From contig NZ_BAGF01000006.1 in the NCBI RefSeq assembly GCF_000308755.1, positions 124,001 to 188,000 of the forward strand: a DNA stretch of 64,000 bases, given 5' to 3'. Made by a program: the position numbers and the translations under genes. Positions 907 to 51,002 of this stretch are shown in pieces. The number at the start of each line of letters is the position of its first letter. Within the stretch, counting starts at the first letter, position 1. Below the pieces are notes generated by a model. It saw nothing but the letters and a program-made list of their open reading frames with translations. It ran no database searches and had not been told where the DNA came from. The stretch comes from Nocardia pneumoniae NBRC 100136 (GTDB lineage Bacteria > Actinomycetota > Actinomycetes > Mycobacteriales > Mycobacteriaceae).

Positions 907-2532
907 ATGGGCCTCGAATGGGACCTGGCAGGCGACGTTGTCGTGGTCGGATACGGCGCCGCGGGCGCGTCGGCGGCGCTGGAGGCGACCGCGGCGGGCG
1001 CGCAGGTGCTCGTGCTGGAGCGGTTCGCGGGCGGCGGCGCGTCGGCGCTGTCCGGCGGCATCATTTACGCGGGCGGCGGCACGTCGGTGCAGCGTGCGAC
1101 GGGAGTCGAGGACACCCCGGAGGCGATGTACGCCTATCTGGAGCGGGAGGTCGGCGACGCGGTCACTCCCGAGACGCTGCGCCGGTTCGTCGAGGAGAGC
1201 CCGGCGCTGATCGAGTGGCTGAAGGGGCACGGCGTTCCGTTCGAACCCTCACTGTGCCCGTACAAGACCTCCTATCCGAACGACCGCTACTACCTGTACT
1301 ACTCCGGCAGCGAGATCTCCGGCGCGTTCCGTGACATCCCCGCGGCCCAGCGCGGACATCGGGTGAAGGGCCGCGGAACCTCGGGCAAGAAGCTCACCGG
1401 CCCGCTCGCCGCTGCCGCGTCCCGGCTCGGCGTGCGCGTCGAAACCCTCACGCGAGCAACCCGACTGATCACCGACGGCACCGGTGCGGTGATCGGCGTG
1501 GAGTGCCACACGCTGCGCGACGCACCCGGACGTGTGCGGGACCGCTACACCCGCATGGCGAATATCGCGGCCAAGCCGGGCATCTACTACCCGCCGCTGC
1601 GCCGGAGGCTGGAACGGCGGATGGCCGGGCTGGAACGCCGATACGGCACCACGATTCGCGTCCTGGCCAGGCGTGGAGTGGTGGTCAGCGCGGGCGGGTT
1701 CATCGCCAATCGCGACATGGTGCGGCTGTACGCACCCGCCTACCGCGGCGGTCTCGCACTCGGCACCACCGGTGACGACGGCAGCGGCATCCTCATGGCA
1801 CAGCAGGTCGGCGCGGCCGTCGACCGCATGGACAACGTCTCAGCGTGGCGATTCCTCCTGCCGCCGAGCGCTTTCACCGGCGCCCTGTTGGTGGACGCCG
1901 CCGGTCGCCGGGTCATCGACGAGACGCGCTACGGCGCAGCCGTCGGTAACGCGCTGATCACCGAGCACGGCGGCAAAGGCTGGCTGCTGGCCGACAACGC
2001 GTTGATGCGCTCCGCGATCGGGCAGATCGGCAAGCAGGGCGCCTGGTTCCAGCGCGGGCAGTTCGAGACCATGCGGCGCACCGCGATTCGCGGCGCCACG
2101 CTGGAAGAAGCCGCGGCCAAGGCGGGTATCGACCCCGCCGGGTTGCGCGCGACGGTCGATGCGCACAACACCGCGATCGCGACCGGCGCCCCCGATCCGG
2201 TCGGCAAGCCCGCCGAATTCACCGAACCGGTCGGAAGCGGCCCGTTCTGGCTGTTGGATGTGGGCATCAAACCGAGCCTGACCAATCCGTGCCCCATGCT
2301 CACCCTCGGCGGCGTCGTCGTGGACGAACGCACCGGCGCGGTCGAATCGACCGCGGGCGAGGACATACCTGGCCTCTTCGCGGCCGGTCGCACCGCGATC
2401 GGCATCTGCTCGAAGTCCTACGTCAGCGGTCTGTCGCTGGCCGACTGCGTCTTCTCCGGCCGCAGGGCAGGCCGGTCCGCGGCGGGCGAGCAGGTCTCCG
2501 CGCTCGATCAAGCAACAGTGGAAGGAAACTAG
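907..2532 (+). CDS. FAD-dependent steroid dehydrogenase, KstD / delta4-(5alpha)-dehydrogenase superfamily
   Basis: 541-residue flavoprotein. Residues 10-20 carry a GYGAAGASAA dinucleotide-binding loop; an ALSGGIIYAGGGT segment follows near residue 50, and the C-terminus has CSKSYVSGLSLADCVFSGR, the second FAD-contact region of fumarate-reductase/KstD-type enzymes. A Tyr-x-Ser pair there (about Y505/S507) resembles the catalytic Tyr/Ser of delta4-(5alpha)-3-ketosteroid dehydrogenase, so introduction or removal of the C4-C5 double bond is a plausible role; this is inference. A reading frame continues far upstream, but the ATG at 907 follows a KstR-like site and a TTAAGGA ribosome site. It leads the operon and ends 1 base before hsaE. 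Confidence 0.75.
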   Translation: MGLEWDLAGDVVVVGYGAAGASAALEATAAGAQVLVLERFAGGGASALSGGIIYAGGGTSVQRATGVEDTPEAMYAYLEREVGDAVTPETLRRFVEESPALIEWLKGHGVPFEPSLCPYKTSYPNDRYYLYYSGSEISGAFRDIPAAQRGHRVKGRGTSGKKLTGPLAAAASRLGVRVETLTRATRLITDGTGAVIGVECHTLRDAPGRVRDRYTRMANIAAKPGIYYPPLRRRLERRMAGLERRYGTTIRVLARRGVVVSAGGFIANRDMVRLYAPAYRGGLALGTTGDDGSGILMAQQVGAAVDRMDNVSAWRFLLPPSAFTGALLVDAAGRRVIDETRYGAAVGNALITEHGGKGWLLADNALMRSAIGQIGKQGAWFQRGQFETMRRTAIRGATLEEAAAKAGIDPAGLRATVDAHNTAIATGAPDPVGKPAEFTEPVGSGPFWLLDVGIKPSLTNPCPMLTLGGVVVDERTGAVESTAGEDIPGLFAAGRTAIGICSKSYVSGLSLADCVFSGRRAGRSAAGEQVSALDQATVEGN

Positions 2533-2533
2533 C

Positions 2534-3319
2534 GTGCTGTCCGACGCGGTACGAACCGAACTGGCCGACGAACTCGAGCGCGCCGAGCGCGACCGGGTGG
2601 CGATCGATCCGCTGATCGCCAGGCACCCCGGCATCGACGTGGTCGACGCCTACGAGATCCAGTTGATCAACATCCGGCGCAAGCTCGACGGCGGCGCACG
2701 CGTCGTCGGGCACAAGGTGGGCCTGTCCTCGAAGGCCATGCAGCAGATGATGGGCGTCGACGAGCCCGACTACGGGCATCTGCTCGCGGAAATGGAAGTC
2801 TACGAAGACGTTCCGGTCGAAGCGGGCCGCTACCTGTTTCCCCGCGTCGAGGTGGAGGTCGGCTTCATCCTCGGCGCCGACCTGCCGGGAGCCGACTGCA
2901 CCGAGGAGGACGTGCTGGCCGCCACGGTCGCCTTCGCACCGGCGATCGAGCTGATCGACTCGCGGATCAAGGACTGGAACATCGGGCTGGCCGACACCAT
3001 CTCCGACAACGCGTCCTCCGCCGGTTTCGTGCTCGGCGCTCAGCGTGTGGCGCCCGCGGACATCGACGTCAAGGCGATCGACGCGGTGCTCACCCGCAAC
3101 GGCGAGGTGGTCGCCGAGGGCCGCAGCGACGCCGTGCTCGGCGATCCCGTCATCGCGGTCGCCTGGCTTGCGCGCAAGGTCGCGAGCTTCGGCGTCCGGC
3201 TGAAAGCGGGTGACATCGTGCTGCCCGGCTCGTGCACCCGCGCCATCGACGCCCGTCCGGGCGACGCGTTCCACGCCGAGTTCGCCGGACTCGGTTCTGT
3301 CCGTCTGCAATTCACCTAG
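2534..3319 (+). CDS. hsaE: 2-hydroxyhexa-2,4-dienoate hydratase HsaE
   Basis: 261-residue member of the 2-keto-4-pentenoate hydratase / fumarylacetoacetase-like fold. In steroid catabolism HsaE hydrates the dienoate released by HsaD to 4-hydroxy-2-oxohexanoate. Visible family segments: [29 protein letters not shown], and [13 protein letters not shown] with the acidic metal ligands. The GTG start at 2534 begins one base after the stop of the upstream flavoprotein and is served by GGAAGGAAAC. hsaE-hsaG-hsaF order is conserved with Mycobacterium and Rhodococcus steroid clusters; the enzymes act in sequence. Confidence 0.9.
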
Positions 3320-3329
3320 GGAGGCTGTC

Positions 3330-4241
3330 GTGTCCGCGAACGGGACCGTCACCGCCGCGATCGTCGGGTCCGGCAATATCAGTACCGATCTGCTCTACAA
3401 ACTGCTGCGCTCGGAGAAGATCCAGCCGCGCTGGATGATCGGGATCGACCCGGACAGCGAGGGTCTGAAGCGGGCCCGCGGGCTGGGGCTGGAGACCTCG
3501 CACGAGGGCGTCGACTGGCTGCTCGGACAGTCCGAACTGCCGGATCTGATCTTCGAGGCGACCTCGGCCTACGTGCACCGCGCCGCCGCACCGCGCTACG
3601 CCGAAGCGGGCATCCGGGCCGTCGATCTCACACCCGCCGCTGTCGGGCCCGCCGTGGTGCCGCCGGTCAACCTCGGCGCCAACCTCGACGCGCCGAACGT
3701 CAACATGATCACCTGCGGCGGGCAGGCGACCATCCCGATCGTCGCCGCGGTGTCGCGGGTCGTCCCGGTGCCGTACGCGGAGATCGTCGCGTCGGTGTCG
3801 TCGGTCTCCGCGGGACCGGGTACCCGCGCGAACATCGACGAGTTCACCAAGACCACCAGCCGTGGAGTGGAGACCATCGGCGGTGCGCGGCGCGGCAAGG
3901 CGATCATCATTCTGAACCCGGCCGAGCCGCCGATGATCATGCGCGACACCATCTTCTGCGCCATCCCCGACGACGCCGACACCGACGCGATCGCCGACTC
4001 CATCCACCGGATGGTCGCCGACATCCAGCAGTACGTGCCGGGCTACCGGCTGCTCAACGAGCCGCAGTTCGACCAGCCGTCGGTGGTGTCCGGCGGCATG
4101 GCCAAGGTATCGGTGTTCGTCGAGGTGGAGGGCGCGGGCGACTTCCTGCCGCCGTACGCGGGCAACCTCGACATCATGACCGCCGCCGCCACGCAGGTGG
4201 GCGAGGTCATCGCGGAACAGATCGCCTCGGCCCGGGTGTAA
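3330..4241 (+). CDS. hsaG: Acylating propanal/acetaldehyde dehydrogenase HsaG
   Basis: 303 residues. Oxidises the aldehyde released by HsaF to its CoA ester (propionyl-CoA in steroid breakdown) with NAD+. The N-terminus has the Rossmann signature [18 protein letters not shown], and [14 protein letters not shown] holds the nucleophilic Cys. The C-terminal domain ([18 protein letters not shown]) completes the family pattern. The GTG at 3330 is 10 bases after the hsaE stop and has a GGGAGG ribosome site; an earlier in-frame ATG (3210) lies inside hsaE and is rejected. Known partners channel aldehyde directly from HsaF to HsaG; the adjacency fits that complex. Confidence 0.92.
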
Positions 4242-47951: not shown

Positions 47952-49511
47952 GTGGTGACGACGCAGGAGTCAGTGGAAATTCTCGGTCTGTGGAACATCG
48001 CCGAAGCCGAACCCGATCGGATCGCGATGGTCGATCCGGCGGGCCGGGAGGTGACGTATCGCGAATTGGCAACGCTGGCCAATCGTTACGCCACCGGCCT
48101 GCGGGGGCTCGGCTTGAATACCGGCGATGTGCTGGTGAGCATGGTGCACAACTGTGTGGAGGCGGTGGCCGCCTATTTCGCGGCCTATCAGTCCGGGTTG
48201 TACATCGTCGCGGTGAACTGGCATCTCACCGGCCCGGAGGTGGCCTACATCCTCGGCGACAGCGAGGCGAAGGCGTTCATCGCCAGCGATCGTTTCGCCG
48301 CCACCGCGAAGGCCGCGGCCGACGAGGCGGGACTGCCCGCGACGGCGCGGTTCGCGGTGGGCGAGATCGAGGGTTTCAAGTCGGTGGCCTGGCTCGGCGC
48401 CGCCGACACCGGGCGTCCGACCGATCGCAGCACGGGCGCGCCGATGCTCTACACGTCCGGAACCACGGGACGGCCCAAGGGAGTTCGGCGCCCGCTCACC
48501 GGCGCCGACCCGGATGTCGTTCCGCCGCACACCACCGCGTTCTTCGGACTCTTCGGCCTCGCGCCCTATGACGATCACGTGCACATCTGCGGCTCGCCGC
48601 TGTATCACACGGCGGTGTTGAACTTCGCCACCATCTCGATTCAGTTGGGCCACAAGCTCGTTCTGATGGATCGCTGGGACGCGGAGGAAATGCTGCGGCT
48701 GATCGACAAGTACCGGGTGACGCACAGCCACATGGTGCCCACCCAGTTCCACCGCCTGCTCGCGCTGCCGGAGGAAGTGCGCGCCAAGTACGACGTCTCC
48801 TCGCTGCGCAGCATGGTGCACGGCGCCGCGCCCTGCCCGCAGGAGACCAAACGGCAGATGCTCGAGTGGTGGGGCCCGACCGTCACCGAGTACTACGCGG
48901 CCACCGAGGGCGGCGGGACGGTGATCAACGGCACCGAGTGGTTGCGCAAGCCTGGCTCGGTGGGCAAGGCGTGGCCGTGGTCGGTGATCAAGGTGCTCAG
49001 CGAAGAGGACGGCTCCGAGGTCCCGGTCGGCGAACCCGGCCTGGTCTACATGCGCATGGGCGCTTCGAGTTTCGAGTACCACCACGACAAGGCCAAGACC
49101 GAGGACTCGCGCGTGGGTGATCTGTTCACCGTCGGCGACATCGGTCATCTCGACGAGGACAGCTACCTCTACCTGCACGACCGGCGCTCGGACCTGATCC
49201 TGTCCGGCGGTGTGAACATCTATCCCGCCGAGATCGAGAACGTCCTGATCACCCACCCGAAGGTCGCGGACGTCGCGGTTTTCGGCATCCCGCATCCCGA
49301 TTGGGGTCAGGAAGTGAAGGCGGTCGTGCAGCCCGCGGAGGGATTCGAGGGCAACGACGAACTCACCACCGAGCTACTCACCTTCGCCGCAACGCAATTG
49401 GCCAAGTACAAGATGCCCAAGTCGATCGACTACCTCCCCGAACTACCACGCGACCCCAACGGCAAGCTCTACAAGCGCAAACTCCGCGACCGCTACATCC
49501 CGGCGCAGTAA
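47952..49511 (+). CDS. Acyl-CoA synthetase of the steroid regulon
   Basis: 519-residue ANL-family ligase: AMVDPAGREVTYRELATLANRYATGLRGLGL, MLYTSGTTGRPKGVRRPL, HICGSPLYHTAVLNFATI, EYYAATEGGGTVINGTEW, FTVGDIGHLDEDSYLYLHDRRSDLILSGGVNIYPAEIENVL, and Lys in PNGKLYKRKLRDRY. Not FadD19 (52.5 kb) or FadD3 (24 kb); probably activates another steroid side-chain acid or cholate-type substrate, inferred from the KstR motif. GTG 47952 lacks a ribosome site and sits 7 bases after TAAATT: leaderless start. Confidence 0.85.
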   Translation: MVTTQESVEILGLWNIAEAEPDRIAMVDPAGREVTYRELATLANRYATGLRGLGLNTGDVLVSMVHNCVEAVAAYFAAYQSGLYIVAVNWHLTGPEVAYILGDSEAKAFIASDRFAATAKAAADEAGLPATARFAVGEIEGFKSVAWLGAADTGRPTDRSTGAPMLYTSGTTGRPKGVRRPLTGADPDVVPPHTTAFFGLFGLAPYDDHVHICGSPLYHTAVLNFATISIQLGHKLVLMDRWDAEEMLRLIDKYRVTHSHMVPTQFHRLLALPEEVRAKYDVSSLRSMVHGAAPCPQETKRQMLEWWGPTVTEYYAATEGGGTVINGTEWLRKPGSVGKAWPWSVIKVLSEEDGSEVPVGEPGLVYMRMGASSFEYHHDKAKTEDSRVGDLFTVGDIGHLDEDSYLYLHDRRSDLILSGGVNIYPAEIENVLITHPKVADVAVFGIPHPDWGQEVKAVVQPAEGFEGNDELTTELLTFAATQLAKYKMPKSIDYLPELPRDPNGKLYKRKLRDRYIPAQ

Positions 49512-49524
49512 CGCGGCCCGGTGA

Positions 49525-49986
49525 GATCCGGGGTAGTCAAATGGTTGCTCTCTCTGGCCCTGAAGCCACCATTTGACTCCCGTCGATGCTCTCGAGTTCT
49601 CCAACGCAACCACAGCCGGTTGACTGGGCTGGGACTGCGGGTGCGTGATCGACGGCGGGAGGTAAGTCGGTACGGCCCCCAGCGTGCCCAGCACTGCTCC
49701 AGTACAAGCATGGAGGGTGTACTCAGCTCGGGGCATCGCCAGGGACTTCTCCGCGGCAGGCTTCGAGTGATGCCCGCCTACCATTGTTTTCTCTGGCGGT
49801 GCTGGGCGCGTCGAGTGCCGTACCCGGCTTACCTCCCGCAGTTGGTCACATCCCGTGGGCTTCCAGCGTGGCCAACCGGCTGTGGTTGCGTTCAGAAATC
49901 CCGGCTGAGGGGCTTTCGCGGGATCGAGGGTAGTCAAATGGTGGCTCTCTTTTGCCCTGCAGCCGCCATTTGACTCCCCTCGATGC
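49525..49986. repeat. Large nested inverted-repeat element without a gene
   Basis: The left end (GATCCGGGGTAGTCAAATGG, 49525-49544) and right end (CCATTTGACTCCCCTCGATGC, 49966-49986) are inverted copies. Each end is itself a hairpin: AGTCAAATGG (49535-49544) with CCATTTGACT (49569-49578), and AGTCAAATGG (49932-49941) with CCATTTGACT (49966-49975). Inside, CAACGCAACCACAGCCGGTT (49602-49621) recurs inverted at 49873-49892, and the GGGAGGTAAGTCGGTACGG-like block near 49650 is inverted near 49820. Arms of ~170-200 bp, centre ~90 bp. No credible coding frame; MITE-like. Confidence 0.75.
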
Positions 49987-50000
49987 TTCAGTTCACTTGA

Positions 50001-51002
50001 TCAGCGCACCGGCTCGCGGAGTTCGGGGGCGAGGCCGAAGAGCGGGAAGAGCTTCTCGGTGTCGAGGAAGAAGTTCAGCCCGGCGATGGTGTGGCCGTCG
50101 AGTTCCAGCACCGTGATCGACCACGGCACCCACACGCCCGGCTCGGCGCCCGGCTTGTAGTGGCCGAAGGCGGGCAGGCCGTTGGCGCCCGCCAACCGCA
50201 CCAGTCGCGAATCGCGGCAGGCGCTTCCGGTGCCGAGCATGAACGCGGCCACGTTCTCCGGGCCGGAGATCCACAGCTCGATCGGCGGCATGGACAGTGC
50301 CACATCCTCTTTCAGCAACGAGGTGAGCGTGTCCATGTCGTAGGCCTCGAACGCCTTGACGAAGTTGTCCACCAGTCTGCGCTGGTCCTCGTCGGTCTCG
50401 TCGTAGCTATCGGTCGTTGTCGGCTGGACCTTGGACATGGTGGCCCGCGCCCGCTGCAGGGCGCTGTTCACCGACGCGGGTGACATGGTGAGCGCCTCGG
50501 CGGTCTCGCTGGCGGAGAACCGCAGGACCTCGCGCATGATCAGGATCGCGCGCTGGGTGGCGGGCAGGTGCTGGCAGGCGGCGACGAAGGCCAAGCGCAG
50601 GGTGTCCTTGGCGCTGGCGTGCTCGGCCGGATCGGCGCCGAAGGCGAGCGCGTTCGGGATGGGCTCGATCCAGACGTAGTCCGGCTGCGGCGCCGGGAGC
50701 GGCGAATCCGGCCGCGACGGACCGGACAGATCCATCGGACGTGCCCTGCGCTGCGGGCCGTCGAGCATGTCGAGGCAGACGTTCGTGGTGATCTTGTAGA
50801 GCCAGGATCGGAGGCTGGCCCGGCCCTCGAACGAGGCATAGGACTTCCACGCGCGGGTGAAGGTCTCCTGCACCGCGTCTTCCGCTTCGAAGGAGGAGCC
50901 GAGCATGCGGTAGGCGTACGCGCACAGCTCTCTGCGATGGGTCTCGAACGAGGCGAGCACGTCGGGAGCGAGGCCCGCGGAGGAGCCGGGCGAGTCGTTC
51001 AT
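50001..51002 (-). CDS. ECF sigma factor with C-terminal SnoaL-like domain
   Basis: 333 residues. Sigma-2: ELCAYAYRMLGSSFEAEDAVQETFTRAWKSYASFEGRASLRSWLYKITTNVCLDMLD. Sigma-4: LPATQRAILIMREVLRFSASETAEALTMSPASVNSALQRARATM. The last ~115 residues (DQRRLVDNFVKAFEAYDMDTLTSLLKEDVALSMPP...) are SnoaL/NTF2-like, as in SigG/SigJ-type ECF factors where this domain takes the place of an anti-sigma factor. ATG 51002, AGGGTGG upstream. Divergent from a VOC-family gene, probably its target. Confidence 0.88.
   Translation of the reverse strand: MNDSPGSSAGLAPDVLASFETHRRELCAYAYRMLGSSFEAEDAVQETFTRAWKSYASFEGRASLRSWLYKITTNVCLDMLDGPQRRARPMDLSGPSRPDSPLPAPQPDYVWIEPIPNALAFGADPAEHASAKDTLRLAFVAACQHLPATQRAILIMREVLRFSASETAEALTMSPASVNSALQRARATMSKVQPTTTDSYDETDEDQRRLVDNFVKAFEAYDMDTLTSLLKEDVALSMPPIELWISGPENVAAFMLGTGSACRDSRLVRLAGANGLPAFGHYKPGAEPGVWVPWSITVLELDGHTIAGLNFFLDTEKLFPLFGLAPELREPVR

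Follow-up and report, generated by a model that had tools for sequence, protein, structure and literature searches.

A ~470-base single unit at 49525-49992 of the window (the whole 64,000-nucleotide stretch of Nocardia pneumoniae NBRC 100136 that was analyzed) belongs to a real BIME-like palindromic repeat of Nocardia, for which no description was found in the open-access literature. Two modules make up the repeat, a ~100-bp arm that comes in inverted pairs and a 66-bp hairpin, here called H, with no coding detected. In the best explanation, to which we give a probability of roughly 0.4, the repeat is a BIME-like mosaic whose arm is a DNA site bound by a protein; it was dispersed by way of DUF222-HNH (13E12-type) proteins, and the window unit is now a relic. 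The linkage between arms and DUF222 genes is the most informative new fact on the repeat.

Architecture of the unit

The unit opens and closes with H; between the two H modules lie a ~100-bp arm, the centre, and the same arm inverted. Two genes, an AMP-binding enzyme gene on the plus strand and a sigma-70/SnoaL-type gene on the minus strand, converge on it. The features are as follows.

47973-49511, strand +, flanking AMP-binding enzyme gene (PF00501, PF13193), start approximate; its end lies 13 bp ahead of the unit
49525-49992, no strand, whole dispersed unit; 81.4% identical over 473 columns to the non-orthologous copy L133 of N. amamiensis
49525-49590, strand +, left H module, repeated directly by the right H; hairpin core 49535-49578
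49603-49697, strand -, left ~100-bp arm, match to the arm profile (model R1, 82.2 bits)
49698-49796, no strand, centre between the arms, 99 bp; aligned, with conservation below that of the arms
49797-49892, strand +, right ~100-bp arm, in inverted orientation to the left one, match to the arm profile (model R1, 90.4 bits)
49922-49987, strand +, right H module, hairpin (core 49932-49975), fold z -8.5
50001-51002, strand -, flanking sigma-70 region 2/4 and SnoaL-like gene, start approximate; stop at 50001

The two H modules are direct repeats of 66 nt, 88% identical and 397 nt apart. The sub-hairpins AGTCAAATGG...CCATTTGACT, which an earlier note on this DNA had described in both arms, are present at 49535-49578 and 49932-49975. 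The left H folds with a z of -3.7, one of 200 shuffles being equally good. The 20-base exact inverted block of that note exists as well. It pairs 49603-49622 with 49873-49892 within a 30-nt pair that is 87% complementary, and its left end had been placed one base off, at 49602-49621. Two more inverted pairs are nested inside the 30-nt pair, 49645-49670/49824-49849 (85%) and 49669-49697/49796-49824 (79%). The proposed bounds, 49525-49986, lie close to the true ends of the unit, as the homology to N. amamiensis L133 runs from 49525 to 49992 and then stops. Gene calling with a home-made codon model returned nothing inside the unit, in agreement with its description as an element without a gene. 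Neither T-tract terminators nor sigma-70 promoters were found between 49300 and 50200 of the window.

Copies and distribution

Arms were detected in 111 of 150 genomes of the genus, the window's own included (E<=1e-3, at most 24 candidates scored per genome). When up to 150 candidates were scored for each genome, there were 4 arm matches in the window's genome (G000), 20 in G152, 45 in G082, 45 in G010, and 31 in G149. The matches in G000 are the window pair, one single arm (L003), and one partial copy (L002). A strict H pattern found five H modules in this genome, two in the window unit, one beside the partial copy, and two without a detected arm, and its reversed control gave no match there. 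The H module can stand without arms.

The window unit as a DNA query matched 19 of 60 genomes, its own included, all from the same genus. A 23-mer of the arm core occurs in 54 stretches of named genomes, 49 from Nocardia, four from Rhodococcus, and one from Prescottella. In N. amamiensis, one copy occupies the orthologous site (L158) and another, L133, an unrelated site. Complete palindromes in G010 are ~500-560 bp long, and one of them folds with a z of -22.6 (20 shuffles). No match to the window unit was found in phages, and in the plasmid collection this query hit only one record, of N. farcinica and 2.66 Mb in size, over 10% of the query. The copy at the unrelated N. amamiensis site and the arms in 111 genomes bear out the earlier reading as a structured repeat; the search for relatives proposed with that reading returned copies from the own genome and from others, and not the lone sequence with non-aligning arms that would have spoken against it.

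In N. amikacinitolerans, arms lie within ~550 bases of contig ends at L109, L116, L120, L121, L123, L129, L131, L146, and L148. Arm palindromes may break short-read assemblies. L003:2059-2979 of the own genome (contig C95) spans 920 bp, is 66% identical to its own reverse complement, and overlaps an open reading frame that looks SSB-like by eye, with a single arm nearby. The element at L232:1379-2708 in G082 contains long GC-rich repeat arrays.

Variation at the orthologous spacer

The flanking gene pair is adjacent in several relatives, but the content of the spacer differs. In G006 the spacer measures 122 bp and holds an unrelated hairpin with a 14-bp perfect stem; it is ~45 bp in G015, where a hairpin extends into the next gene, and ~300 bp in G019. 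In G007 (L193), 1.1 kb of GC-rich repeats, judged by eye, stand in place of the unit, and G016 has H alone. No arm was detected in the orthologous spacers of these five genomes. G008 has H and one arm. The orthologous site of N. amamiensis, whose flanking proteins are 97% and 98% identical to those of the window, has one unit followed by pieces that appear degenerate by eye. At the orthologous site of G152 (L254; flanking proteins 97% and 96% identical), there are two tandem units in the order H, arm-, arm+, H, arm-, arm+, H.

The presence of one unit in the window and N. amamiensis and of two in G152 at one and the same site indicates that whole ~400-bp units are gained or lost in tandem. Such gain and loss, together with H modules standing without arms, is BIME-like behavior, and a mosaic repeat explains the differences between relatives at this locus. 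Arm-free orthologous spacers exist, for example in G006 and G016; the comparison of relatives established none of them as an empty-site allele with cleanly defined ends. A target-site duplication was not noticed by eye at the printed ends, which are uncertain. The outer 66-bp direct repeats are H modules, and since H stands alone elsewhere and units repeat in tandem, these direct repeats need not be a target-site duplication.

Folding and nature of the arm

The predicted RNA fold of the unit reaches -289.5 kcal/mol on the plus strand (z -11.3) and -258.4 kcal/mol on the minus strand (z -13.2), and none of 100 shuffles equaled it on either strand. The best local score of the unit against its own reverse complement is 144, compared with a maximum of 53 in 60 shuffles. 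The folded inverted structure is real and far beyond chance, which answers the folding check suggested along with the first description.

Selection on RNA pairing is unsupported. The long hairpin is kept among ten elements, but of its 88 pairs only 8 show two-sided changes, and the term for covariation is unfavorable. RNAalifold found no pair common to 56 single arms. Rfam covariance models gave no match at the gathering threshold in the window; one sub-threshold match in five related loci was disregarded. A structured RNA family was rejected on the lack of both an Rfam match at the gathering threshold and a common fold of single arms. Sequence blocks of the arm are conserved across genera. 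Conserved blocks without a common fold and with little covariation favor recognition of the arm as DNA by a protein over a function as RNA. The arm is most likely a DNA site recognized by a protein, as judged from its sequence.

Gene context and comparison with known repeats

In the loci examined, arms show a strong preference for gaps between convergent genes. The 64 arm-bearing gaps came from chosen loci (20 loci in G010, 15 in G149, 5 in G152, 20 in G082, and the window), with a single arm at the end of a locus disregarded; they comprise 40 convergent, 21 codirectional, and 3 divergent gaps. The control consisted of 323 element-free neighboring pairs less than 1.5 kb apart on the same sequences, with genes from a home-made caller, and contained 50 convergent, 187 codirectional, and 86 divergent pairs (binomial p 1.9e-17 for the convergent excess). 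The convergent share is 27 of 43 without G010, and 9 of 21 in G082 alone. This bias may reflect tolerance, a function at the 3' end, or both.

REPs are 20-40 bp long, and REP/BIME elements are extragenic palindromes tagged with GTAG or CGTC, as described in PMC3733652. The Nocardia repeat is likewise an extragenic palindrome with units in opposite orientations, and it shares with these elements a position mostly downstream of genes, between unidirectional or convergent genes. Units of alternating orientation form an array at L254 of G152. The modules are larger, ~98-100 bp for the Nocardia arm and 66 bp for H compared with the 20-40 bp given in the same source. The REP tag is an unpaired GTAG or CGTC; H begins with GGTAGTC, most bases of which pair in the predicted stem. 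The main text of PMC3733652 contains no mention of Nocardia, Streptomyces, mycobacteri, or Actinobacteria.

MITEs and foldback elements are gene-free and dispersed, with long inverted repeats, and the Nocardia unit is alike in these respects. It differs in having no arm-matched transposase, in its tandem units, and in its outermost H modules, which are direct repeats. No parent transposon with the same ends was seen at the four inspected arm matches of G000, whose assembly of 151 contigs may be incomplete. The earlier suggestion of a REP/BIME- or MITE-like element is partly borne out, by the multi-copy, non-coding nature, the alternating arms, the tandem units, the copy at an unrelated site, and the orthologous spacers without arms.

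Linkage to DUF222-HNH genes

The arms of G010 are clustered with DUF222 genes. In this genome, an arm follows within 3 kb on the 3' side of 23 of the 24 DUF222 genes, and all but one of the 45 arms (44) have a linked DUF222 gene no more than 3.6 kb away; in 2000 random placements, the number linked never exceeded 3. All 20 fetched loci have a gene with DUF222-type homology near the palindrome, and the five genes checked against Pfam all have both DUF222 and HNH. The palindrome starts 0.14-0.86 kb past the DUF222 stop in 14 measured loci and 1.5 kb past it in L274. A ~70-bp stretch upstream of the gene is also common to the copies.

Outside G010, 40 DUF222 loci were chosen from 14 other genomes. 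Nine had less than 400 bp downstream, leaving 31 testable loci (at least 400 bp downstream) from 12 genomes. An arm lies within 800 bp downstream in 15 of the 31: 8 of 13 in G150, 2 of 2 in G063, 2 of 3 in G143, 2 of 2 in G138, and 1 of 1 in G149. Nine of these 15 (from G150, G063, and G138) score just 17-25 bits with the arm profile, although two of the nine, L329 and L335, reach 43 and 46 bits with model R1. The other 16 loci have no downstream arm, four of them having one on the 5' side; all testable loci of G018 (three), G108 (two), and G084, G085, G086, G007, and G016 (one each) are among these 16.

DUF222-HNH/13E12 repeats are known from mycobacteria (PMC10589994) and "lack defined biological function" (PMC13061034). 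The linked genes of G010 resemble these repeats in combining DUF222 with HNH and in being multi-copy, whereas the window copy has no such gene. A palindromic site beside DUF222 genes in six Nocardia genomes offers a direct, testable substrate for DUF222-HNH proteins.

In the 14 G010 loci, palindromes differ by 9.2% when the genes are less than 10% apart and by 10.0% when the genes are more than 25% apart (rho 0.19, p 0.06 for palindrome against gene distance). Palindrome distance does not track gene distance, in keeping with a palindrome that is homogenized or moves independently of the DUF222 gene, and this counts in favor of the best explanation. No DUF222 gene was found in the window's genome (E<=1e-10), in G152, or in G006. 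G082, G149, G007, G008, and G016 have one or two DUF222 genes each and G152 none, against 10-45 arms in each of the six, so most arms there are not beside one. Dispersal of the window unit by such nucleases, if any, would have occurred in an ancestor or a donor.

A palindrome of G010 (L284, G010:C1:466018-467959; L096:88-1320 and 1870-3054) is split into halves ~1.4 kb apart. A Mutator-family transposase gene lies between the halves, and an IS110-family gene adjoins.

Arm cores on plasmids

The arm core is also found on small plasmids of Rhodococcus. In eight small RepA/RepB plasmid records, it lies upstream of repA in the direction of repA. The 20-mer core has one mismatch on three plasmids of 2.03-2.04 kb that carry little else, and none on the other five. 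The likeness of these upstream regions to the Nocardia arm lies in the core GTACCCGRYYTACCTYCCGC and one further block, with only 15-22 bits by the full arm profile. They differ from the Nocardia repeat in having mostly single arms, on replicons. Presumably, these plasmids are kin to pAL5000. Four other plasmid records have the core, at 0-2 mismatches, upstream of a gene for a ~200-aa protein of unknown function. Two inverted copies of the core, far apart, are present on pN30, pRET1200, and pREC01.

A second group of Nocardia arms has in common a longer 5' module in the alignment. Of seven loci of this group with checked neighbors, one has a GntR/UTRA-type gene nearby and another an FtsK/SpoIIIE-type gene; the neighbors of the remaining five are ordinary or unknown. 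These loci may represent integrative elements. Common descent of the plasmid and chromosomal arms is likely, and the arm can be read, from these sequence matches, as one DNA site used on both replicons and chromosomes.

Dispersal of the repeat

The unit is probably a non-autonomous BIME-like repeat that DUF222-HNH nucleases would once have dispersed. In the proposed mechanism, a DUF222-HNH protein would recognize the arms, bind there, and cut, and would in this way copy or home the DNA bearing them. Solo units such as the window copy would spread in trans. In a genome free of DUF222, the window unit would be a fixed relic, persisting because it is tolerated in a 3'-3' spacer; a further role of H may be that of a two-way hairpin at 3' ends. 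That a DUF222-HNH enzyme moves the arms is possible, at slightly less than even odds. The copy at an unrelated site, the differing number of units at one site, the convergent bias, and the linkage in G010 and in 15 of 31 loci elsewhere speak for it. Against it stand the lack of DUF222 genes in the window's genome, the many arms in genomes with at most two such genes, the 16 testable loci with no downstream arm, and the low profile scores of nine of the 15 linked ones. A wider proposal, which we regard as rather unlikely, is that DUF222-HNH proteins represent a novel type of mobile element, the combination of an HNH nuclease with a palindromic cis site on its 3' side that is recognized as DNA and copied in trans between 3'-3' gaps. 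The site would be the one that small Nocardiaceae plasmids and integrative elements have next to their replication genes; nucleases, repeats, and plasmids would form one network, and the window unit would be a non-autonomous member.

The linkage could equally result from DUF222 genes inserting beside palindromes. In its general form, this alternative is unlikely: the palindromes would be independent intergenic repeats, beside or into which homing-type DUF222-HNH genes or IS elements insert, and palindromes between convergent genes would be safe, cleavable targets. The near-uniform palindromes of DUF222 subfamilies that have diverged by a gene distance of up to ~0.43 are consistent with it, as are the many palindromes in genomes with 0-2 DUF222 genes and the G010 copy split by the Mutator-family gene and bordered by the IS110-family gene. 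Against it, all 23 linked DUF222 genes of G010 have the palindrome on the 3' side, and the common ~70 bp upstream looks as if gene and palindrome moved jointly. It is distinctly unlikely that the element owes its retention chiefly to a role as a bidirectional transcription terminator or an insulator of convergent genes, with dispersal secondary. The bias of arm gaps to convergent genes and the other strong hairpins in the same spacer of relatives (the 14-bp stem in G006, H in G016, and the hairpin in G015) suit such a role, but those relatives manage with a single H or a short hairpin, and ~330 bp of arms and centre would be unneeded. The absence of a T-tract terminator around the unit and the scarcity of two-sided changes with an unfavorable covariation term also argue against it.

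The arm might instead be a cis site of replication (an origin, an initiator-binding site, or a single-strand start) of Nocardiaceae plasmids or integrative elements that was copied to chromosomes and fell into inverted pairs. The core upstream of repA on eight small plasmid records points to this origin, as do the GntR/UTRA-type and FtsK-type neighbors in the second group. It is nevertheless quite improbable, as the similarity of the plasmid arms is mainly two core blocks, five of the seven second-group loci have no telling neighbors, and inverted pairing and H are not seen on most plasmids. A true REP/BIME family mobilized by a RAYT (Y1) transposase is largely refuted and highly improbable. 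The alternating units, the location at 3' ends, and the GTAG at the foot of H fit such a family, and PF01797 occurs in 5 of 36 genomes, including the arm-bearing G003, G013, and G018. However, PF01797 is absent from five arm-bearing genomes (G000, G007, G008, G010, and G016) at E<=1e-5, no arm is present at any of the nine PF01797 loci within ~1.5 kb on either side, and arms of ~100 bp exceed the size of REPs cited above. The earlier idea of mobilization in trans by a transposase encoded elsewhere thus fails for RAYT in the own genome; the DUF222-HNH proteins, which we favor, are linked to arms in other genomes and absent here.

Other genes beside arms

In R. marinonascens, R. spelaei, and P. 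subtropica, the arm core has as its neighbor a gene for a ~200-aa protein with a CxxC...CxxxC motif, which in R. marinonascens sits between two inverted arms. The R. marinonascens protein has no match in Pfam or NCBIfam. Members of the family, whose motif reads CPWC...WCSDQC, are encoded at L125:3702-4331, L141:5828-6436, and L143:717-1355, and on small Rhodococcus and Prescottella plasmids. The genes are preceded by a common stretch, ACACACCTCTTGCACTA...GGCGCGACGAAATA. Relatives are nearly absent from the window's genus (three hits in 60 genomes, one of them from that genus) and were found in 12 plasmid records. This protein was rejected as the mobilizing enzyme.

In G082, an inverted repeat of 351 bp, 95% identical, at L231:1062-1410 and 3679-4028 flanks a MerR/beta-clamp-like gene and its neighbor. 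By Pfam, neither gene is a transposase. A composite element was rejected, and the locus is read as a pair of insertions with ordinary genes between them.

Around the plasmid arm, the motif ACACACCTCTTGCA occurs repeatedly, at L215 ~2501-2541, L200 ~1636-1676, and L208 ~258-277 and ~580-594. A promoter, an initiator site, or a piece of oriT is possible for this region. A larger R. pyridinivorans plasmid has a stretch like L200 1636-1676 directly ahead of a mobF relaxase gene.
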